Shown piece by piece: positions 11,432-18,624 of a stretch of 64,000 bases of DNA; positions within the stretch are counted from its first letter, which is position 1; the number at the start of each line of letters is the position of its first letter. The notes beneath the pieces are model-generated. The model was not told where the DNA came from, ran no database searches, and saw nothing but the letters and a program-made list of their open reading frames with translations. The stretch comes from Streptococcus infantis (GTDB taxonomy: Bacteria > Bacillota > Bacilli > Lactobacillales > Streptococcaceae), in NCBI RefSeq assembly GCF_000960085.1, contig NZ_JYGT01000010.1, positions 265,633 through 329,632 on the forward strand, in the 5' to 3' direction. The position numbers were made by a program, and so were the translations under genes.

Positions 11432-11524
11432 ATTTCAATATAAATATGAAAAAGTTTTCATTTTTTCCAAATAGTAAATTCACGAACGAAAAATCAAATT
11501 ATTTATTAAAGTTTCACAAAATAC

Positions 11525-11553
11525 TTTACAAGATAGTGAAAACATGATATAGT
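11525..11553 (+). promoter_or_regulatory. Sigma-70-type promoter of the polyamine leader RNA
   Basis: TTTACA at 11525-11530 and TATAGT at 11548-11553 are separated by exactly 17 bases, close to the consensus housekeeping promoter. Transcription would begin near 11560, giving the structured RNA that follows. No other promoter of this quality is visible before speA. Confidence 0.8.
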
Positions 11554-11559
11554 AATGAA

Positions 11560-11890
11560 GCTTAGAAAATGAGATGATGTTTTCTAGCAAATATAAACCC
11601 GAGTAAAAAATGCCTACGGACAGGCAGGGTTGAATGCCGAAGCGTGGTTGGAAAGCCACATTATTGATAGGGTTAAAAGCCTACTTTTATAAGTTGATGT
11701 TAGGACACTTGTCCTAATTCGTATAGATTTGTTAGTGTGGTGAAAGCACACGTCATCTTGTGAAACGATCAATAAAGTACGTAATATTTGCTACTAGAGA
11801 GTTAGGAAACATCAGGAACAGACATACTCAAAAGAAACAAACATAAACACGTCAGTAGATTGTAGAGCAGGTGCCAACCTGCTCTTTTTT
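11560..11890 (+). ncRNA. Structured non-coding RNA / leader of the polyamine operon, about 330 nt
   Basis: Between the promoter above and the T-run at 11885-11890 there is no sizeable ORF but many helices: TGCCT/AGGCA (11611-11626), GTGGTT/AGCCAC closing a GGAA tetraloop (11644-11659), TTAGGAC/GTCCTAA (11700-11717), GTGTG/CACAC with a GAAA-type loop (11735-11751) and AGAAAA/TTTTCT (11564-11585). Long-range pairs are also possible: TAGCAAATAT (11585-11594) with ATATTTGCTA (11784-11793), GTTGATG (11693-11699) with CATCA/AAC (11810-11819), and GAGTA (11601-11605) with TACTC (11825-11829). The last two would form pseudoknots with the first. It ends in an intrinsic terminator 45 bases before speA. 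It does not match tmRNA, RNase P RNA, SRP RNA, T-box, lysine, SAM, TPP or glycine signatures as I remember them. It may be a free small RNA or a cis-acting attenuator; I cannot name it. Confidence 0.75.
11864..11890 (+). terminator. Intrinsic terminator at the end of the polyamine leader RNA
   Basis: AGAGCAGGT (11864-11872) and ACCTGCTCT (11877-11885) form a 9-bp stem with a GCCA loop followed by six T. As only 44 bases separate it from speA and no promoter is seen there, operon transcription probably depends on read-through, so this may be a regulated attenuator. I found no clear competing antiterminator strand by eye. Confidence 0.85.
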
Positions 11891-11934
11891 CATAAGTATC
11901 CTTTAGAGCCTTACATGGTTAAGGTGAGAAAACT

Positions 11935-13413
11935 ATGATAAAGGAGTATGTCTTTATAATGTTAAATCAAAACCAAGCTCCCATCTATGAGGGATTGGTC
12001 AAGTTACGAAAAAAAAGAATTGTCCCATTTGATGTACCAGGTCATAAGCGTGGCCGTGGAAATCCAGAGTTGGTCGAACTTTTAGGGGAGAAATGCGTTG
12101 GTATTGATGTCAATTCTATGAAGCCCTTGGATAATCTGGGACATCCTATTTCGATTATCCGAGAAGCAGAGGAGTTGGCTGCAGAAGCCTTTGGTGCTGC
12201 TCATGCCTTCTTAATGATTGGCGGAACAACATCATCAGTTCAAACCATGATTCTCTCTACCTGTAAAGCAGGTGACAAAATCATCCTTCCTCGAAACGTT
12301 CATAAATCAGCTATCAATGCACTCGTTTTATGTGGCGCCATTCCCATTTATATCGAGATGAGTGTGGATCCAAAAATCGGTATTGCACTGGGACTTGAAA
12401 ATGAGCGTGTAGCTCAAGCTATTAAGGAAAATCCAGATGCCAAGGCTATCCTAATCAACAATCCAACCTATTATGGGATTTGTTCAGACCTTAAGGGGCT
12501 AACAGAGATGGCTCACGCTGCAGGAATGAAAGTCTTAGTAGATGAAGCGCACGGGGCCCATCTACATTTTACAGATAAACTTCCCCTATCTGCTATGGAC
12601 GCAGGAGCTGATATGTCAGCTGTATCCATGCATAAGTCTGGTGGCAGCTTGACACAAAGTTCGCTTCTTTTAGTTGGGGATCAGATGAATCCTGAGTACG
12701 TTCGTCAAATTATTAACCTGACACAGTCAACATCAGCATCTTATCTGTTAATGGCTAGTCTAGATGTTTCTCGTAGAAACCTAGCCCTTCGTGGTAAGGA
12801 GTCCTTTGAGAAGGTCATTGAGCTGTCAGAGTATGCTCGTCGTGAAATCAATGCCATCGGTGGCTACTACGCCTACTCAAAAGAGTTAATAGACGGTGTC
12901 TCGGTTTGTGATTTTGATGTGACTAAGTTGTCAGTCTACACCCAAGGTATCGGTTTAACAGGGATTGAGGTTTATGATCTCCTACGAGACGAATATGACA
13001 TTCAGATTGAATTTGGCGACATTGGGAATATCTTGGCCTATATTTCGATTGGTGATCGGATTCAAGACATCGAGCGCTTGGTAGGTGCTTTGGCTGATAT
13101 CAAGAGACTTTACTCGAGAGATGGGAAGGACTTGATTGCTGGAGAATATATCCAGCCAGAGTTGGTGCTCTCTCCTCAGGAAGCCTTTTATTCAGAAAGA
13201 AAAAGTTTAACCTTGGATGAATCCGTTGGACAAGTCTGTGGGGAATTTGTCATGTGCTATCCTCCAGGAATTCCAATTCTAGCGCCAGGTGAACGGATTA
13301 CACGAGAAATTGTTGATTATATCCAATTTGCCAAAGAACGTGGTTGTTCCCTCCAAGGAACGGAAGATCCAGAGGTCAATCACATCAATGTTATTGAGAG
13401 AAAGGAGAACTAG
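11935..13413 (+). CDS. speA: Arginine decarboxylase, aminotransferase-fold (SpeA)
   Basis: The 492-residue PLP enzyme belongs to the Orn/Lys/Arg decarboxylase class of fold type I. It has FDVPGHKRGRGNPEL near the start (about 32-46), PRNVHKS (119-125), DEAHGAH (203-209) and the PLP lysine in SMHKSGGSLTQSS (Lys234). The family is often labelled lysine decarboxylase, but the pneumococcal orthologue is known as an arginine decarboxylase making agmatine, and the downstream aguA-aguB genes use agmatine. AAGGTGAG lies 6 bases before the ATG at 11935; an ATG at 11959 (MLNQNQAP) is an alternative. It is the first gene of a tightly packed six-gene operon. Confidence 0.9.
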   Translation: MIKEYVFIMLNQNQAPIYEGLVKLRKKRIVPFDVPGHKRGRGNPELVELLGEKCVGIDVNSMKPLDNLGHPISIIREAEELAAEAFGAAHAFLMIGGTTSSVQTMILSTCKAGDKIILPRNVHKSAINALVLCGAIPIYIEMSVDPKIGIALGLENERVAQAIKENPDAKAILINNPTYYGICSDLKGLTEMAHAAGMKVLVDEAHGAHLHFTDKLPLSAMDAGADMSAVSMHKSGGSLTQSSLLLVGDQMNPEYVRQIINLTQSTSASYLLMASLDVSRRNLALRGKESFEKVIELSEYARREINAIGGYYAYSKELIDGVSVCDFDVTKLSVYTQGIGLTGIEVYDLLRDEYDIQIEFGDIGNILAYISIGDRIQDIERLVGALADIKRLYSRDGKDLIAGEYIQPELVLSPQEAFYSERKSLTLDESVGQVCGEFVMCYPPGIPILAPGERITREIVDYIQFAKERGCSLQGTEDPEVNHINVIERKEN

Positions 13414-14274
13414 ATGGATTTATGGTTTTCTGAGGTTCACACTCCAGATGTGAAATTGTCCTTGAGAACAGCTAAGCAACTCTACGCTGGTAAAAGTGAA
13501 TGGCAGGATATTGAAGTTTTAGATACGCCTGCTTTTGGGAAGATATTGATTTTAAATGGGCATGTCTTGTTTTCAGATGCAGATGATTTTGTCTACAATG
13601 AAATGACAGTTCATGTTCCAATGGCTGTCCATCCTAATCCAAAGAAAGTTTTGGTTATCGGGGGTGGCGACGGTGGTGTTGCCCAAGTATTAACGCTTTA
13701 TCCTGAATTGGAACAAATCGATATCGTGGAACCGGATGAGATGTTGGTTGAGGTCTGTCGAGAGTATTTTCCAGACTTTGCTGCAGGGCTAGATGATCCT
13801 CGTGTTACCATCTACTACCAAAATGGACTTCGCTTTTTACGAAATTGCGAAGATGATTACGACATTATCATCAATGATGCGACTGATCCATTTGGACATA
13901 CAGAAGGTCTCTTTACAAAGGAATTTTACGGCAATAGTTACCGTGCTCTGAAAGAAGATGGTATTATGATTTACCAGCATGGTAGTCCTTTCTTTGACGA
14001 AGATGAGTCAGCTTGCCGAAGCATGCACCGCAAGGTCAATCAAGCCTTTCCAATCAGTCGGGTTTATCAGGCACATATCCCTACTAGTCCTGCTGGCTAT
14101 TGGTTATTTGGATTTGCATCAAAAAAATACCACCCTGTCAAAGATTTTGATAAAGAAGGCTGGAAAAAACGCCAGCTATTCACAGAATACTATACTGCAA
14201 ACTTACACGTTGGTGCCTTTATGTTGCCAAAATACGTTGAAGACATTTTAGAAGAAGAGGAAGGAAAAAAATGA
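13414..14274 (+). CDS. speE: Spermidine synthase-family aminopropyltransferase (SpeE)
   Basis: The 286-residue protein has the polyamine aminopropyltransferase layout: SDADDFVYNEMTVHVPM (about 54-70), the nucleotide-binding GGGDGG (83-88), the acidic IVEPDE (104-109) and the catalytic-loop NDATDPFGHTEGLF (154-167, with Asp155 and Asp158). The family transfers an aminopropyl group from decarboxylated SAM to putrescine. No speD (SAM decarboxylase) is in this window, so its donor supply here is unclear. The ATG follows the speA stop directly, with AAAGGAG inside the end of speA, and its stop overlaps the next gene by four bases. Confidence 0.9.
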   Translation: MDLWFSEVHTPDVKLSLRTAKQLYAGKSEWQDIEVLDTPAFGKILILNGHVLFSDADDFVYNEMTVHVPMAVHPNPKKVLVIGGGDGGVAQVLTLYPELEQIDIVEPDEMLVEVCREYFPDFAAGLDDPRVTIYYQNGLRFLRNCEDDYDIIINDATDPFGHTEGLFTKEFYGNSYRALKEDGIMIYQHGSPFFDEDESACRSMHRKVNQAFPISRVYQAHIPTSPAGYWLFGFASKKYHPVKDFDKEGWKKRQLFTEYYTANLHVGAFMLPKYVEDILEEEEGKK

Positions 14275-15530
14275 GTCGTTTATTAGTGATTGGATGTGGG
14301 GGCGTTGCCCAAGTTGCTATCTCAAAGATTTGTCAAGATAGCGAAACCTTTACAGAGATTATGATTGCCAGCCGTACCAAGTCAAAATGTGATGACTTGA
14401 AAGCTAAATTAGAGGGAAAAACAAGTACTAAAATTGAAACAGCTGCTCTTGATGCTGACAAGGTAGAAGAAGTCATTGCCTTGATTGAAAGCTACAAGCC
14501 AGAAGCTGTTTTGAACGTAGCTCTACCATACCAAGATTTGACCATTATGGACGCTTGCTTGGCAACGGGAGTTCACTATATCGACACAGCCAACTATGAG
14601 GCTGAAGACACAGAAGACCCTGAATGGCGTGCGATTTATGAGAAACGCTGCAAAGATCTTGGATTTACGGCTTACTTTGATTATTCATGGCAATGGGCTT
14701 ACCAAGAAAAATTCAAAGAAGCTGGCTTGACAGCTCTTCTTGGTTCTGGATTTGACCCAGGGGTAACTAGCGTCTTCTCAGCATACGCTCTGAAACACTA
14801 TTTTGATGAAATTCACTATATCGACATTTTAGACTGTAATGGTGGTGACCATGGTTATCCATTTGCAACTAACTTTAACCCAGAAATCAATCTTCGCGAG
14901 GTTTCTGCGCCAGGTTCTTACTGGGAAGATGGAAAATGGGTAGAAGTAGAAGCTATGTCTATCAAACGTGAGTATGATTTCCCTCAAGTTGGTGAAAAAG
15001 ACATGTATCTTCTTCACCACGAAGAAATTGAATCGCTGGCTAAAAACATCCCAGGAGTTAAACGTATTCGTTTCTTCATGACTTTTGGTCAATCTTATCT
15101 AACCCACATGAAATGCTTGGAAAACGTTGGGCTCCTTCGTACAGATACTATTAACTTTAACGGTCAAGAAATCGTGCCGATTCAATTTTTGAAAGCCTTG
15201 CTTCCAGATCCTGCAAGCCTTGGCCCACGTACCGTTGGAAAAACCAATATCGGATGTATCTTTACAGGTGTCAAAGATGGTATTGAAAAGACTATCTACA
15301 TCTACAATGTTTGCGACCATCAGGAGTGCTACGCAGAAGTTGGTTCGCAGGCTATCTCTTACACAACAGGTGTTCCTGCCATGATTGGGACAAAATTAGT
15401 GATGGATGGTACTTGGAAACAACCAGGAGTGTATAATCTTGAAGAGTTGGATCCAGATCCATTCATGGAAGCTTTGAATAAATACGGTTTACCATGGGTT
15501 GTGGTTGAAAATCCGCAAATGGTGGACTAA
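14271..15530 (+). CDS. Carboxy(nor)spermidine dehydrogenase/synthase, saccharopine-dehydrogenase family
   Basis: The 419-residue enzyme starts with a Rossmann nucleotide-binding motif (VIGCGGVAQVAISKI, about 5-19) and contains GSGFDPGVTSVFSAYA (about 157-172), both typical of the saccharopine dehydrogenase-like (Lys9) family. Followed by nspC, it is best read as the NADPH-dependent enzyme that condenses putrescine with aspartate-semialdehyde to carboxyspermidine, rather than a lysine-pathway enzyme. Its ATG overlaps the speE stop (ATGA) with AGGAAGGA upstream, and its TAA shares one base with the nspC ATG. Confidence 0.88.
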   Translation: MSRLLVIGCGGVAQVAISKICQDSETFTEIMIASRTKSKCDDLKAKLEGKTSTKIETAALDADKVEEVIALIESYKPEAVLNVALPYQDLTIMDACLATGVHYIDTANYEAEDTEDPEWRAIYEKRCKDLGFTAYFDYSWQWAYQEKFKEAGLTALLGSGFDPGVTSVFSAYALKHYFDEIHYIDILDCNGGDHGYPFATNFNPEINLREVSAPGSYWEDGKWVEVEAMSIKREYDFPQVGEKDMYLLHHEEIESLAKNIPGVKRIRFFMTFGQSYLTHMKCLENVGLLRTDTINFNGQEIVPIQFLKALLPDPASLGPRTVGKTNIGCIFTGVKDGIEKTIYIYNVCDHQECYAEVGSQAISYTTGVPAMIGTKLVMDGTWKQPGVYNLEELDPDPFMEALNKYGLPWVVVENPQMVD

Positions 15531-16657
15531 TGAAGTTAGAACAAGTACCAACACCATCCTATGTCATTGATTTAGCTAAACTAGAGGATAATTGCCGTAT
15601 TCTACAAGAGGTTCAAGAAAAGGCAGGCTGTAAGGTGTTGCTAGCTCAAAAGGCTTATTCCCTCTATAAAACCTATCCTTTGATTAGCCAGTATCTTTTT
15701 GGTACTACGGCTAGTGGTCTTTATGAAGCTAAGTTAGCTAGAGAAGAGTTCCCAGGGGAAGTCCATGTATTTGCTCCTGCTTTTAAAGAAGCAGATATGG
15801 AAGAGCTGCTTCAAATATCTAATCACATTGTTTTTAACTCAGAGAGACAACTACGAAAATATGGTCAAACTTGTCGTGAGGCTGGTATCAGTGTAGGTCT
15901 ACGCCTCAATCCTCAGTGTTCTACTCAGGGAGATCACGCGCTCTATGACCCTTGTGCTCCTGGATCCCGTTTTGGAGTGACTCAAGACAAAATACCAAGT
16001 GATTTGCTGGACTTGGTGGATGGGCTTCATTTTCATACTCTTTGTGAGCAAGGGGCAGATGATTTACAAACGACTTTGAAAGCAGTAGAAGACCAGTTTG
16101 GTGCCTATTTGCACCAAGTTAAATGGCTCAATATGGGTGGTGGACATCACATTACGAGAGATGACTACGATGTGGACTTACTGATTTCTGAGATTAAACG
16201 GATTCGAGAAACCTATAACCTTGATGTCTATATAGAACCAGGAGAAGCGATTGCACTCAATGCTGGTTATTTAGCTACTGAAGTTTTAGACATCGTTGAA
16301 AATGGGATTGAGACCCTAGTCTTAGATGCTTCAGCAAGCTGTCATATGCCAGATGTCCTTGAGATGCCCTATCGTCCTCCATTGAGAGATGGTTTTGAAG
16401 CCCAAGAAAAAACTTATACTTATAGACTTTCTTCCAATACCTGTCTAACAGGTGATATCATTGGTGACTATAGCTTTGAAAATCCAGTTGAGATTGGAGA
16501 TAGATTGTACTTCGAGGATATGGCAATCTACTCCTTTGTCAAAAATAATACCTTTAACGGGATTGGACTGCCAAGTTTGTATGTGATGGATAGAGAGGGT
16601 AAATGCAGTCTAGTCAAGGCCTTTGGCTACCAAGACTTTAAGGAGAGATTATCATGA
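15530..16657 (+). CDS. nspC: Carboxynorspermidine/carboxyspermidine decarboxylase (NspC)
   Basis: The 375-residue protein is a PLP-dependent alanine-racemase-fold decarboxylase. The PLP lysine lies in [15 protein letters not shown] (Lys41), the phosphate-binding segment is [13 protein letters not shown], and the second active-site part is [12 protein letters not shown] near the C-terminus. It removes the carboxyl group from carboxyspermidine to give spermidine. The ATG overlaps the preceding stop by one base (TAATG), so translation is probably coupled; no strong ribosome binding site is seen. Its TGA overlaps the aguA ATG. Confidence 0.9.
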
Positions 16658-17739
16658 TGGACAGTCCAAAGAAATTAGGTTATCGTATGCCTGCAGAGTA
16701 TGAATCCCATCATGGAACTCTCATGATATGGCCTACTCGACCAGGGTCTTGGCCATTTCAAGGCAAGGCTGCAAAAACAGCTTTTAGCCAGATTATCAAA
16801 ACCATTGCCCAAGGAGAAACAGTCTATCTTTTGGTAGAGGAGTACTATCTATCTGAAGCACAATCTTATCTTGGAGACAAGGTTGTTTATCTAGATATTC
16901 AGACAAATGATGCCTGGGCTCGTGATACTGGTCCAACTATTCTCCTCAATGATCAAAGGGAAAAGTTGGCGGTAGATTGGTCTTTCAATGCCTGGGGTGG
17001 TGTTGTTGATGGTCTCTACCAAGACTATGAAGCAGATGATCAAGTAGCTAGTCGCTTTGCTGAAGCCTTGGAAATACCTGTTTATAATGCCAAACCTTTT
17101 GTACTGGAAGGTGGAGCTATTCATAGTGACGGTCAAGGAACTATTCTTGTCACAGAAAGTTGCTTGCTCAGTCCTGGTCGTAATCCTCACCTGAGTAAAG
17201 AGCAGATTGAAAAGACCTTACTAGAGAGTCTTGGTGCTGAAAAAGTCATCTGGTTGCCTTATGGTATTTATCAAGATGAGACAAATGAACACGTCGATAA
17301 TGTTGCATCCTTTGTTGGTCCTGCAGAGCTTGTTTTAGCTTGGACGGACGACCAAGAAGATCCTCAGTATGCTATGTCTGCAGCAGATCTAGCTCTTTTA
17401 GAGAAGGAAACTGATGCAAAAGGCCGGAGTTTCACTATTCATAAGCTTCCAATCCCAGCTATTCACCAAGTAGTTACAGAAGAAGATTTGCCGGGCTATG
17501 CTTATGAAGAAGGCGAAGAGGAGCGTTATGCAGGTGAAAGACTAGCAGCTTCCTATGTGAATTTTTATATCGCCAATAAATCTGTCTTGGTACCACAATT
17601 TCAGGATGCTAACGACCAAGTGGCCTTGGATATTTTGAGCCAGTGTTTCCCAGACCGTGAAGTCGTAGGAATCCCAGCTAGAGATATTCTTTTAGGTGGT
17701 GGAAATATCCACTGCATTACCCAACAAATTCCAGAATAG
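16654..17739 (+). CDS. aguA: Agmatine deiminase (AguA)
   Basis: The 361-residue protein shows the peptidyl-arginine-deiminase fold signatures: [19 protein letters not shown] at the N-terminus, [11 protein letters not shown] (about 85-95), [22 protein letters not shown] and the catalytic cysteine in [12 protein letters not shown] (about Cys354). It hydrolyses agmatine to N-carbamoylputrescine and ammonia. Two ATG codons in tandem (16654 and 16657) are available; AAGGAGAG lies just upstream. The start overlaps nspC by four bases, and aguB follows after nine bases. Confidence 0.93.
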
Positions 17740-17748
17740 GAGAAAAAG

Positions 17749-18624
17749 ATGAGAAATGTAACGGTTGCAGCTATTCAGATGCAATGCTCTAAGGATGTGG
17801 AAACCAATATCCAAACAGCTGAACGTTTAGTCCGTCAAGCTGCTGAGCAAGGAGCCCAGATCATTCTTTTACCAGAATTATTTGAACGTCCCTATTTCTG
17901 TCAGGAGCGTCAGTATGACTTCTACCAGTATGCCCAGTCAGTGACAGAAAATACGGCCATTCAGCATTTTAAATTGATTGCCAAGGAACTAAAGGTCGTT
18001 TTACCAATCAGTTTCTATGAAAAAGATGGTAATGTCTTATACAATTCTATTGCTGTCATTGATTCGGATGGAGAAGTACTAGGAGTTTATCGTAAAATTC
18101 ATATACCAGATGACCATTATTATCAGGAGAAATTCTTCTTTACTCCTGGAAATACTGGTTTCAAGGTCTGGGACACTCGCTATGCCAAGATTGGTATCGG
18201 GATCTGTTGGGACCAATGGTTCCCTGAAACTGCCCGTTGTCTTGCGTTAAATGGTGCGGAATTACTCTTTTATCCAACTGCCATTGGATCAGAGCCGATT
18301 TTGGATACAGATAGTTGTGGTCATTGGCAACGTACCATGCAAGGACATGCAGCAGCAAATATTGTGCCAGTTATCGCAGCCAATCGTTATGGTTTAGAAG
18401 AAGTCACTCCTTGTGAAGAAAATGGAGGACAAAGTTCCAGTCTTAACTTCTACGGTTCATCCTTTATGACCGATGAAACAGGAGCTATTCTAGAGCGAGC
18501 TGAAAGACAAGGAGAAGCTGTTCTGCTAGTAACTTATGACCTTAACAAAGGAGCAAATGAGCGCCTAAATTGGGGCTTATTTAGAGATAGAAGACCAGAC
18601 ATGTATAAAGATATTGTCAGATGA
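17749..18624 (+). CDS. aguB: N-carbamoylputrescine amidase (AguB)
   Basis: The 291-residue nitrilase-superfamily amidase has the Glu-Lys-Cys catalytic triad in place: Glu43 in LLPELFERPYF, Lys116 in YRKIHIPDDHYY and Cys153 in GIGICWDQWFPE. It hydrolyses N-carbamoylputrescine to putrescine, CO2 and ammonia, completing the arginine-to-putrescine route with SpeA and AguA. AGGAG lies 6 bases before the ATG. It is the last gene of the operon and is followed at once by a terminator. Confidence 0.94.
   Translation: MRNVTVAAIQMQCSKDVETNIQTAERLVRQAAEQGAQIILLPELFERPYFCQERQYDFYQYAQSVTENTAIQHFKLIAKELKVVLPISFYEKDGNVLYNSIAVIDSDGEVLGVYRKIHIPDDHYYQEKFFFTPGNTGFKVWDTRYAKIGIGICWDQWFPETARCLALNGAELLFYPTAIGSEPILDTDSCGHWQRTMQGHAAANIVPVIAANRYGLEEVTPCEENGGQSSSLNFYGSSFMTDETGAILERAERQGEAVLLVTYDLNKGANERLNWGLFRDRRPDMYKDIVR

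Follow-up and report, generated by a model that had tools for sequence, protein, structure and literature searches.

A conserved structured RNA ahead of the spermidine operon of Streptococcus infantis, a predicted attenuator of spermidine synthesis

Introduction

Does the structured RNA encoded ahead of speA in Streptococcus infantis act on its own, or does it control the spermidine operon behind it? The question was raised by a stretch of 64,000 nucleotides (nt) of this genome (RefSeq assembly GCF_000960085.1, contig NZ_JYGT01000010.1, positions 265,633 to 329,632 of the forward strand; hereafter the window, in whose numbering positions are given), in which a promoter, an RNA of about 330 nt and an intrinsic terminator precede a polyamine operon. 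The gene order after the terminator is speA-speE-CASDH-nspC-aguA-aguB (CASDH, carboxyspermidine dehydrogenase). The original prediction left two readings side by side, an independent structured RNA or a metabolite- or polyamine-responsive attenuator; the genomic layout favours the latter and disfavours the former, as the order promoter, RNA, terminator and operon is conserved across three types of spermidine operon. The RNA is therefore read as a probable cis-acting, riboswitch-type attenuator of spermidine synthesis. Taken separately, its role as a cis-acting leader is held with good confidence, its nature as a metabolite riboswitch is probable, and spermidine as the ligand, judged from the genes alone, has an even chance of being right.

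Promoter, leader RNA and terminator

The near-consensus promoter that had been claimed is present (TTTACA-17-TATAGT with an extended -10 at 11525-11553, 10/12 consensus matches), and so is the folded RNA: the minimum free energy (MFE) of 11559-11893 was -91.3 kcal/mol, compared with -70.7 +/- 5.1 kcal/mol for 100 dinucleotide shuffles (z -4.0; 0/100 shuffles reached it). The leader RNA is a single copy in the window's genome. The elements ahead of speA are as follows.

11525-11553, + strand: leader promoter, -35 box TTTACA, 17-bp spacer, extended -10 TGATATAGT
11560-11890, + strand: leader RNA of about 330 nt, its ends placed from the promoter and the terminator
11864-11890, + strand: intrinsic terminator, stem 11864-11885, U-run to 11890
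11940-11946, + strand: Shine-Dalgarno sequence AAAGGAG of speA, from the sequence

Among 95 distinct Streptococcus copies, a promoter with at least 9/12 matches stands ahead of the RNA in 88 and the extended -10 in 93. The terminator was correctly described as lying before speA, at a distance that has to be revised: the position of the Shine-Dalgarno sequence makes the ATG at 11959 a more likely start than 11935, so that the gap from the U-run to the likely start is 68 nt rather than 45. The spacer was measured in 90 of the 95 sequences; 80 of these had 44-71 nt, and the longest had 583 nt. The statement that speA has no other visible promoter held for the group, since promoters of at least 9/12 occurred in 6/84 terminator-speA spacers of Streptococcus vs 9/84 shuffled spacers and all 16 spacers of 44-52 nt between terminator and speA were free of promoter signal; it needs a qualification for the window, where one 9/12 match at 11910-11939 overlaps the speA Shine-Dalgarno sequence. 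Given the conserved leader promoter and the absence of promoter enrichment in the spacers, read-through from the RNA's own promoter is the simplest route to speA expression.

Just 3' of the terminator, a TCCTTTA is complementary to the speA Shine-Dalgarno sequence TAAAGGA (window 11901-11946), and similar pairs were seen by eye in other mitis-group copies; such pairing is a possible extra translational control.

Occurrence of the RNA

Within Streptococcus, the RNA was found in 83/197 genomes by BLAST (one of them, G140, by a 27-nt match that was set aside) and in 82/197 with the covariance model R1; SpeA was found in 80/197, with three matches at E 4e-5 to 2e-4 set aside. RNA and speA were both present in 79 genomes and both missing in 114, a concordance of 193/197. 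The discordant genomes comprise three with RNA and no speA (G015, G109 and G149, all three also lacking CASDH) and a single one with speA and no RNA (G026, locus L126). In G120 the RNA carries an internal deletion, speA is in two pieces and CASDH is missing; in G067, G098, G108 and G193 speA is split, with RNA and CASDH still there.

The operon of G026 is a distant one (speA 63% and speE 45% identical). The S. suis-type loci L035 (G149) and L050 (G109) keep an intact RNA but have lost both speA and CASDH; a short open reading frame beside the RNA presumably resembles an IS200-type transposase. A phage origin was rejected after one exact pattern of the RNA gave 0 matches in viral contigs; in genome contigs the same pattern matched at least 80 loci, and among those listed 78 were from Streptococcus and 2 were others unmatched by R1.

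Beyond Streptococcus, R1, whose computed structure omits helix P2 (see below), gave no match in 395 genomes of the order. Model R2, whose fold had been corrected by hand, was run on 398 genomes of the class and gave 37 good matches, of which 27 lay outside Streptococcus with E-values of 1.6e-21 to 2.8e-16; six weaker ones at E 0.3 to 6.7 were taken as chance and set aside. Seventeen of the 27 were read. The next gene was CASDH in 16 of these Bacilli and a SpeA-SpeE-CASDH series in one, with a predicted terminator, by pattern, between RNA and gene in 17/17. Terminators were predicted at further loci, six by folding and two (L244, L247) by eye. Model R3, derived from the cores of 12 Bacilli and 4 streptococci, located the RNA in 10/249 phylum-sample genomes, among them the window's own, the already-seen G567 and 8 new ones, in which the next gene was SpeD (3), SpeA (3) or CASDH (2); the SpeD calls were made with Pfam AdoMet_dc (3/3) and, in the one scanned, with the NCBIfam adenosylmethionine decarboxylase model. 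Over all 25 non-streptococcal loci the next gene was thus CASDH in 18, speA in 4 and speD in 3, a spermidine gene in 25/25. The occurrence of the RNA outside Streptococcus, in 27 class-sample and 8 phylum-sample genomes, is new here.

CASDH was present in 31/249 phylum genomes, and all 10 RNA-positive genomes were among them (hypergeometric p 2e-10; 2e-9 when the window's own genome is left out; both values ignore relatedness and, the genomes being related, overstate independence). In 9/10 of the RNA-positive genomes CASDH is encoded downstream of the RNA and on its strand; G970 has it on a different contig.

Other RNAs were met at leaderless spermidine operons. At L246:6312-6478 (+) the interval between SpeE and CASDH holds a Clostridiales-1 RNA (RF01699, 130.9 bits), a further RNA within this type of operon. 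At L245:5691-5773 (-) a ZMP/ZTP riboswitch (55.7 bits) is located upstream of such an operon, about 1.5 kb from speA.

Structure of the RNA

The 10-bp long-range pairing that had been claimed between 11585-11594 and 11784-11793 is exact (TAGCAAATAT/ATATTTGCTA) and is termed P1. The helices are listed below with the number of pairs changed on both sides in A9, an alignment of 45 chosen cores from all lineages that was made to model R3 and leans towards it.

11561-11587, + strand: P0, 5' hairpin CTTAGAAAA/TTTTCTAG, seen in the sequence and in representative copies
11585-11594, + strand: P1 5' strand, partner 11784-11793
11784-11793, + strand: P1 3' strand, proposed to pair alternatively with the terminator 5' arm
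11576-11813, + strand: P1 extension in Streptococcus, 11576-11584/11805-11813, within the best duplex found
11596-11631, + strand: P2 (11596-11600/11627-11631; both-side changes at 5/5 pairs) around hairpin P3 (11612-11614/11623-11625; 2/3 pairs)
11644-11659, + strand: P4 hairpin, both-side changes at 5/6 pairs
11661-11775, + strand: P5 (11661-11668/11768-11775), closing the P6-P9 domain
11670-11682, + strand: P6 hairpin around GUUAAAAG, both-side changes at 2/4 pairs
11685-11765, + strand: P7 (11685-11698/11752-11765), 94.8% of cells paired, 0 both-side changes
11700-11717, + strand: variable hairpin within P7 in the window's lineage, missing in L054-L056
11735-11751, + strand: P9 hairpin, both-side changes at 3/5 pairs

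In A9, 94.1% of the cells of the 51-pair core were paired and both-side changes occurred at 25/51 pairs; when partners were slid by 1-3 columns as a control, pairing was 39-46.1% and at most 16 pairs were changed on both sides. In A8, an alignment made with MAFFT, both-side changes occurred at 12/51 pairs and 4/5 measures exceeded all 500 shuffles. Compensatory changes are carried by P2, P3, P4, P6, P8, P9 and P2a, a small hairpin inside P2 that is missing in the window copy. P5 (99.2% of cells paired, almost invariant, 0 both-side changes in A9) and P7 show too little variation for a covariation test. The covariation called for by the original prediction was obtained for the cross-lineage core, with its 25/51 pairs, and not for Streptococcus alone, where nulls were not beaten.

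P1 lies outside model R3. It is present in all three lineages with differing sequences (e.g. GAACTACT/AGTAGTTC in L240) and beat shuffles at p<0.05 in 20/26 RNAs of the three lineages, a set that includes 11 of the 17 read non-streptococcal Bacilli and nine streptococci in which the duplex tested includes the P1 extension. P0 is incompatible with P1 and with its extension because it overlaps both. The competition of P0 and the P1 extension for the same bases (window 11561-11594 and 11805-11813) recurs in mitis- and suis-type copies with different sequences, and the two may form a second switch in Streptococcus. AGTA 11776-11779 with TACT 11792-11795, noticed by eye, is a weak knot candidate. 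Insertions of more than 100 nt occur in hairpin loops of three copies, belonging to S. henryi, S. porci and S. entericus, that are otherwise conserved (P4 loop in L033 and L182, P6 loop in L058).

Rfam family and pneumococcal small RNA

At cut-off, an Rfam scan of the window returned nothing; a permissive scan gave one partial match.

11595-11640, + strand: match to RF02440 (SpF59_sRNA), 46 nt, 28.5 bits, E 0.0034, cut-off 37.2

Both the earlier statement that the RNA belongs to no known class and the Rfam check proposed with it thus had a divided outcome: no known class was matched at cut-off in the window, and a 46-nt part nevertheless matches RF02440 below it. Since RF02440 scored above cut-off in 18/19 RNA-bearing non-streptococcal relatives scanned (12/12 and 6/7), the window holds a homologue that escapes the Rfam model.

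The pneumococcal counterpart bears the names srn235, F59, SN20, Spd_sr49 and M7. It is a candidate small RNA (sRNA) of 327 nt in TIGR4 (PMC12323649), is located between SP0915 and SP0916 and showed a lung fitness of 0.05 in srn235 and SN20 mutants (PMC3395615). The annotation of SP0916 as a lysine decarboxylase has been corrected to arginine decarboxylase (PMC7990898), and the name 'ldcC RNA' probably derives from the old annotation. The accessible parts of the published reports give no structure, ligand or leader role for srn235/F59; those of PMC7196914 hold nothing on this RNA, and a term search of PMC6296669 and PMC10942264 gave 0 matches. In the open-access literature, supplements aside, no paper was found that links the RNA to spermidine genes outside pneumococcus.

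Proposed mechanism and rival explanations

The RNA is a structured, predicted leader of metabolically related genes, conserved ahead of spermidine operons in many Bacillota, as a riboswitch would be, its leader status following from gene order and promoter prediction. In the proposed mechanism the operon would be reached by read-through past the terminator. With abundant polyamine, probably spermidine, the ligand would bind and steady the core and P1, and the terminator would form before speA; without ligand, the P1 3' strand would pair with the terminator 5' arm, and the polymerase would pass. The candidate ligand pocket would involve AAUGCCGA and the P5-P7 junctions. The terminator 5' arm was AGCAAGTG in 17/17 other Bacilli, a sequence that also opened the search pattern these loci had matched, and the 3' arm had 7 forms; a constant 5' arm facing a varied 3' arm would fit a second partner for the 5' arm. 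The P1 3' strand TATTTGCT is complementary to the terminator 5' arm, and the strands are present in 17/17 of these Bacilli.

Several results weigh against the attenuator as drawn. The antiterminator energy had a mean z of -1.49 in the other Bacilli, with 4/17 RNAs at p<0.05, of -0.37 in Streptococcus (0/40) and of +0.32 outside the class (0/6), so that the terminator switch has modest support in the other Bacilli but lacks it in Streptococcus and outside the class; the switching element thus probably differs between lineages. In Streptococcus alone, no pair reached E<=0.5 in a G-test for covariation with an R-scape-like null, and a helix-window scan gave 3 windows where the null averaged 1.25 and went up to 6; both scans, counted as negative, used an automatic alignment in which the P2 arms had slipped. 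Set aside among the copies were L190 (pattern unmatched) and L033, L182 and L058 (large insertions). In A8, further pair types were not above shuffles (498/500 as high). G109 and G149 have kept the RNA without the operon. Of the 31 CASDH-positive phylum genomes, 21 were without the RNA, and since a laxer search gave a single match at E 0.37, many such operons do without it. Many riboswitches control several loci; here no second target gene was found, and there is nearly always one RNA copy per genome.

A cis-acting leader that senses a protein, translation or another RNA, in which control of termination is real and the RNA is not itself the sensor, would explain the genomic layout equally well. 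It draws on the same antiterminator result, unsupported in two of three lineages for a simple riboswitch, and on an aptamer that is so far predicted. It is nevertheless considered unlikely: neither the T-box family nor any other known family of leaders matched in the loci scanned, and P5, P7 and several junctions are near-invariant across the phylum, which resembles a ligand pocket. A leader peptide, as a translation-sensing leader might carry, was rejected because the short 5' reading frame of the window's lineage is, judged by eye, missing from other types of Streptococcus. That near-invariance also appears to exceed what a stability element needs, and makes it very unlikely that the leader is structured and unregulated, with a fixed leaky terminator or a stabilizing role and with folding aided unselectively by polyamines. 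Such a leader would agree with the broad binding of RNA by polyamines (PMC10853860), with the strength of the terminator and with the lack of a conserved competitor outside the other Bacilli.

The independent RNA of the original prediction corresponds to a trans-acting sRNA, srn235/F59, that is a chance neighbour of speA; transcription of the gene would then depend on leakage through the terminator or start at another place. Pneumococcal catalogues list the RNA as an sRNA (PMC12323649, PMC3395615). It has its own predicted promoter and terminator, persists where speA is split and in the two S. suis-type genomes that lack both speA and CASDH, and is associated with the low lung fitness of the srn235 and SN20 mutants (PMC3395615). 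However, known leaders (T-box, FMN and pyr) occur in the same pneumococcal sRNA lists (PMC12323649), and a polar effect on speA may account for the mutant phenotype. Retention was not independent of the operon, as 4/197 genomes are discordant and the three with RNA alone also lack CASDH; spacers of 44-52 nt leave speA without a promoter signal of its own, and the next gene is a spermidine gene at each of the 25 non-streptococcal loci read. On account of this linkage an independent sRNA is disfavoured and regarded as distinctly improbable, and the attenuator of spermidine synthesis remains the preferred reading.

Genes of the operon

The genes behind the terminator were assigned with Pfam and NCBIfam models.

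11959-13413, + strand: speA, decarboxylase of the Orn/Lys/Arg fold (Pfam OKR_DC_1; likely start, the longest open reading frame running from 11935)
13414-14274, + strand: speE, spermidine synthase family (NCBIfam above cut-off)
14271-15530, + strand: CASDH (Pfam saccharopine dehydrogenase domains; best NCBIfam model carboxynorspermidine synthase, 408 bits vs an equivalog cut-off of 800)
15530-16657, + strand: nspC, carboxy(nor)spermidine decarboxylase (NCBIfam above cut-off)
16654-17739, + strand: aguA, agmatine deiminase (NCBIfam above cut-off)
17749-18624, + strand: aguB, N-carbamoylputrescine amidase (NCBIfam above cut-off)

For the pneumococcal SP0916 protein, arginine is the preferred substrate (PMC7990898).

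Comparison with known systems

T-box and other large biosynthetic leaders likewise combine a promoter, a large structured leader and an intrinsic terminator ahead of a biosynthetic operon. The T-box family had no Rfam match in the window, the permissive scan included, or in the loci scanned, and a T-box leader was rejected for this reason. The SAM-I-variant spermidine riboswitch is an OFF switch for spermidine in a transcription-terminating leader of polyamine-synthesis genes; its description reports 13 examples, from genera that exclude Streptococcus (PMC10853860). On the proposed reading the leader described here is like it, as a leader of polyamine genes that terminates transcription, but the fold differs. 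SAM riboswitch families had no Rfam match at cut-off in the window or in 24 relatives, where a degenerate variant could score below, and the permissive scan of the window locus gave none either; membership in this class was rejected on the missing match and the different fold. RF02440, 'Streptococcus sRNA SpF59 (ldcC RNA)', is a model of 54 positions typed 'Gene; sRNA', whereas the present RNA comprises an entire leader, with P1, the P5-P9 domain, a terminator and linkage to spermidine operons.

Because the RNA differs from the SAM-I class, contains the RF02440 stretch and has no paper on a spermidine link outside pneumococcus, it is proposed as a new class of terminator-bearing leader with a predicted ligand. 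A named feedback sensor of the carboxyspermidine route to spermidine was not found in the open-access literature; that route is used by many gut bacteria, and with a confirmed ligand the RNA would be its sensor. If so, a 54-nt 'sRNA' family would become a full regulatory class, the infection-attenuated pneumococcal 'sRNA' mutant would probably be one damaged in the spermidine operon's leader, and a large conserved RNA would be at hand for asking how RNA discriminates between polycations. Further polyamine riboswitch classes are expected by the authors of PMC10853860. The chances are evenly balanced that this RNA is a second natural one, unrelated to the SAM-I variant, Bacillota-wide and with an unusually large core, which would sense spermidine or carboxyspermidine and shut its own synthesis operon, with RF02440 as a fragment of it and F59 as its terminated product.

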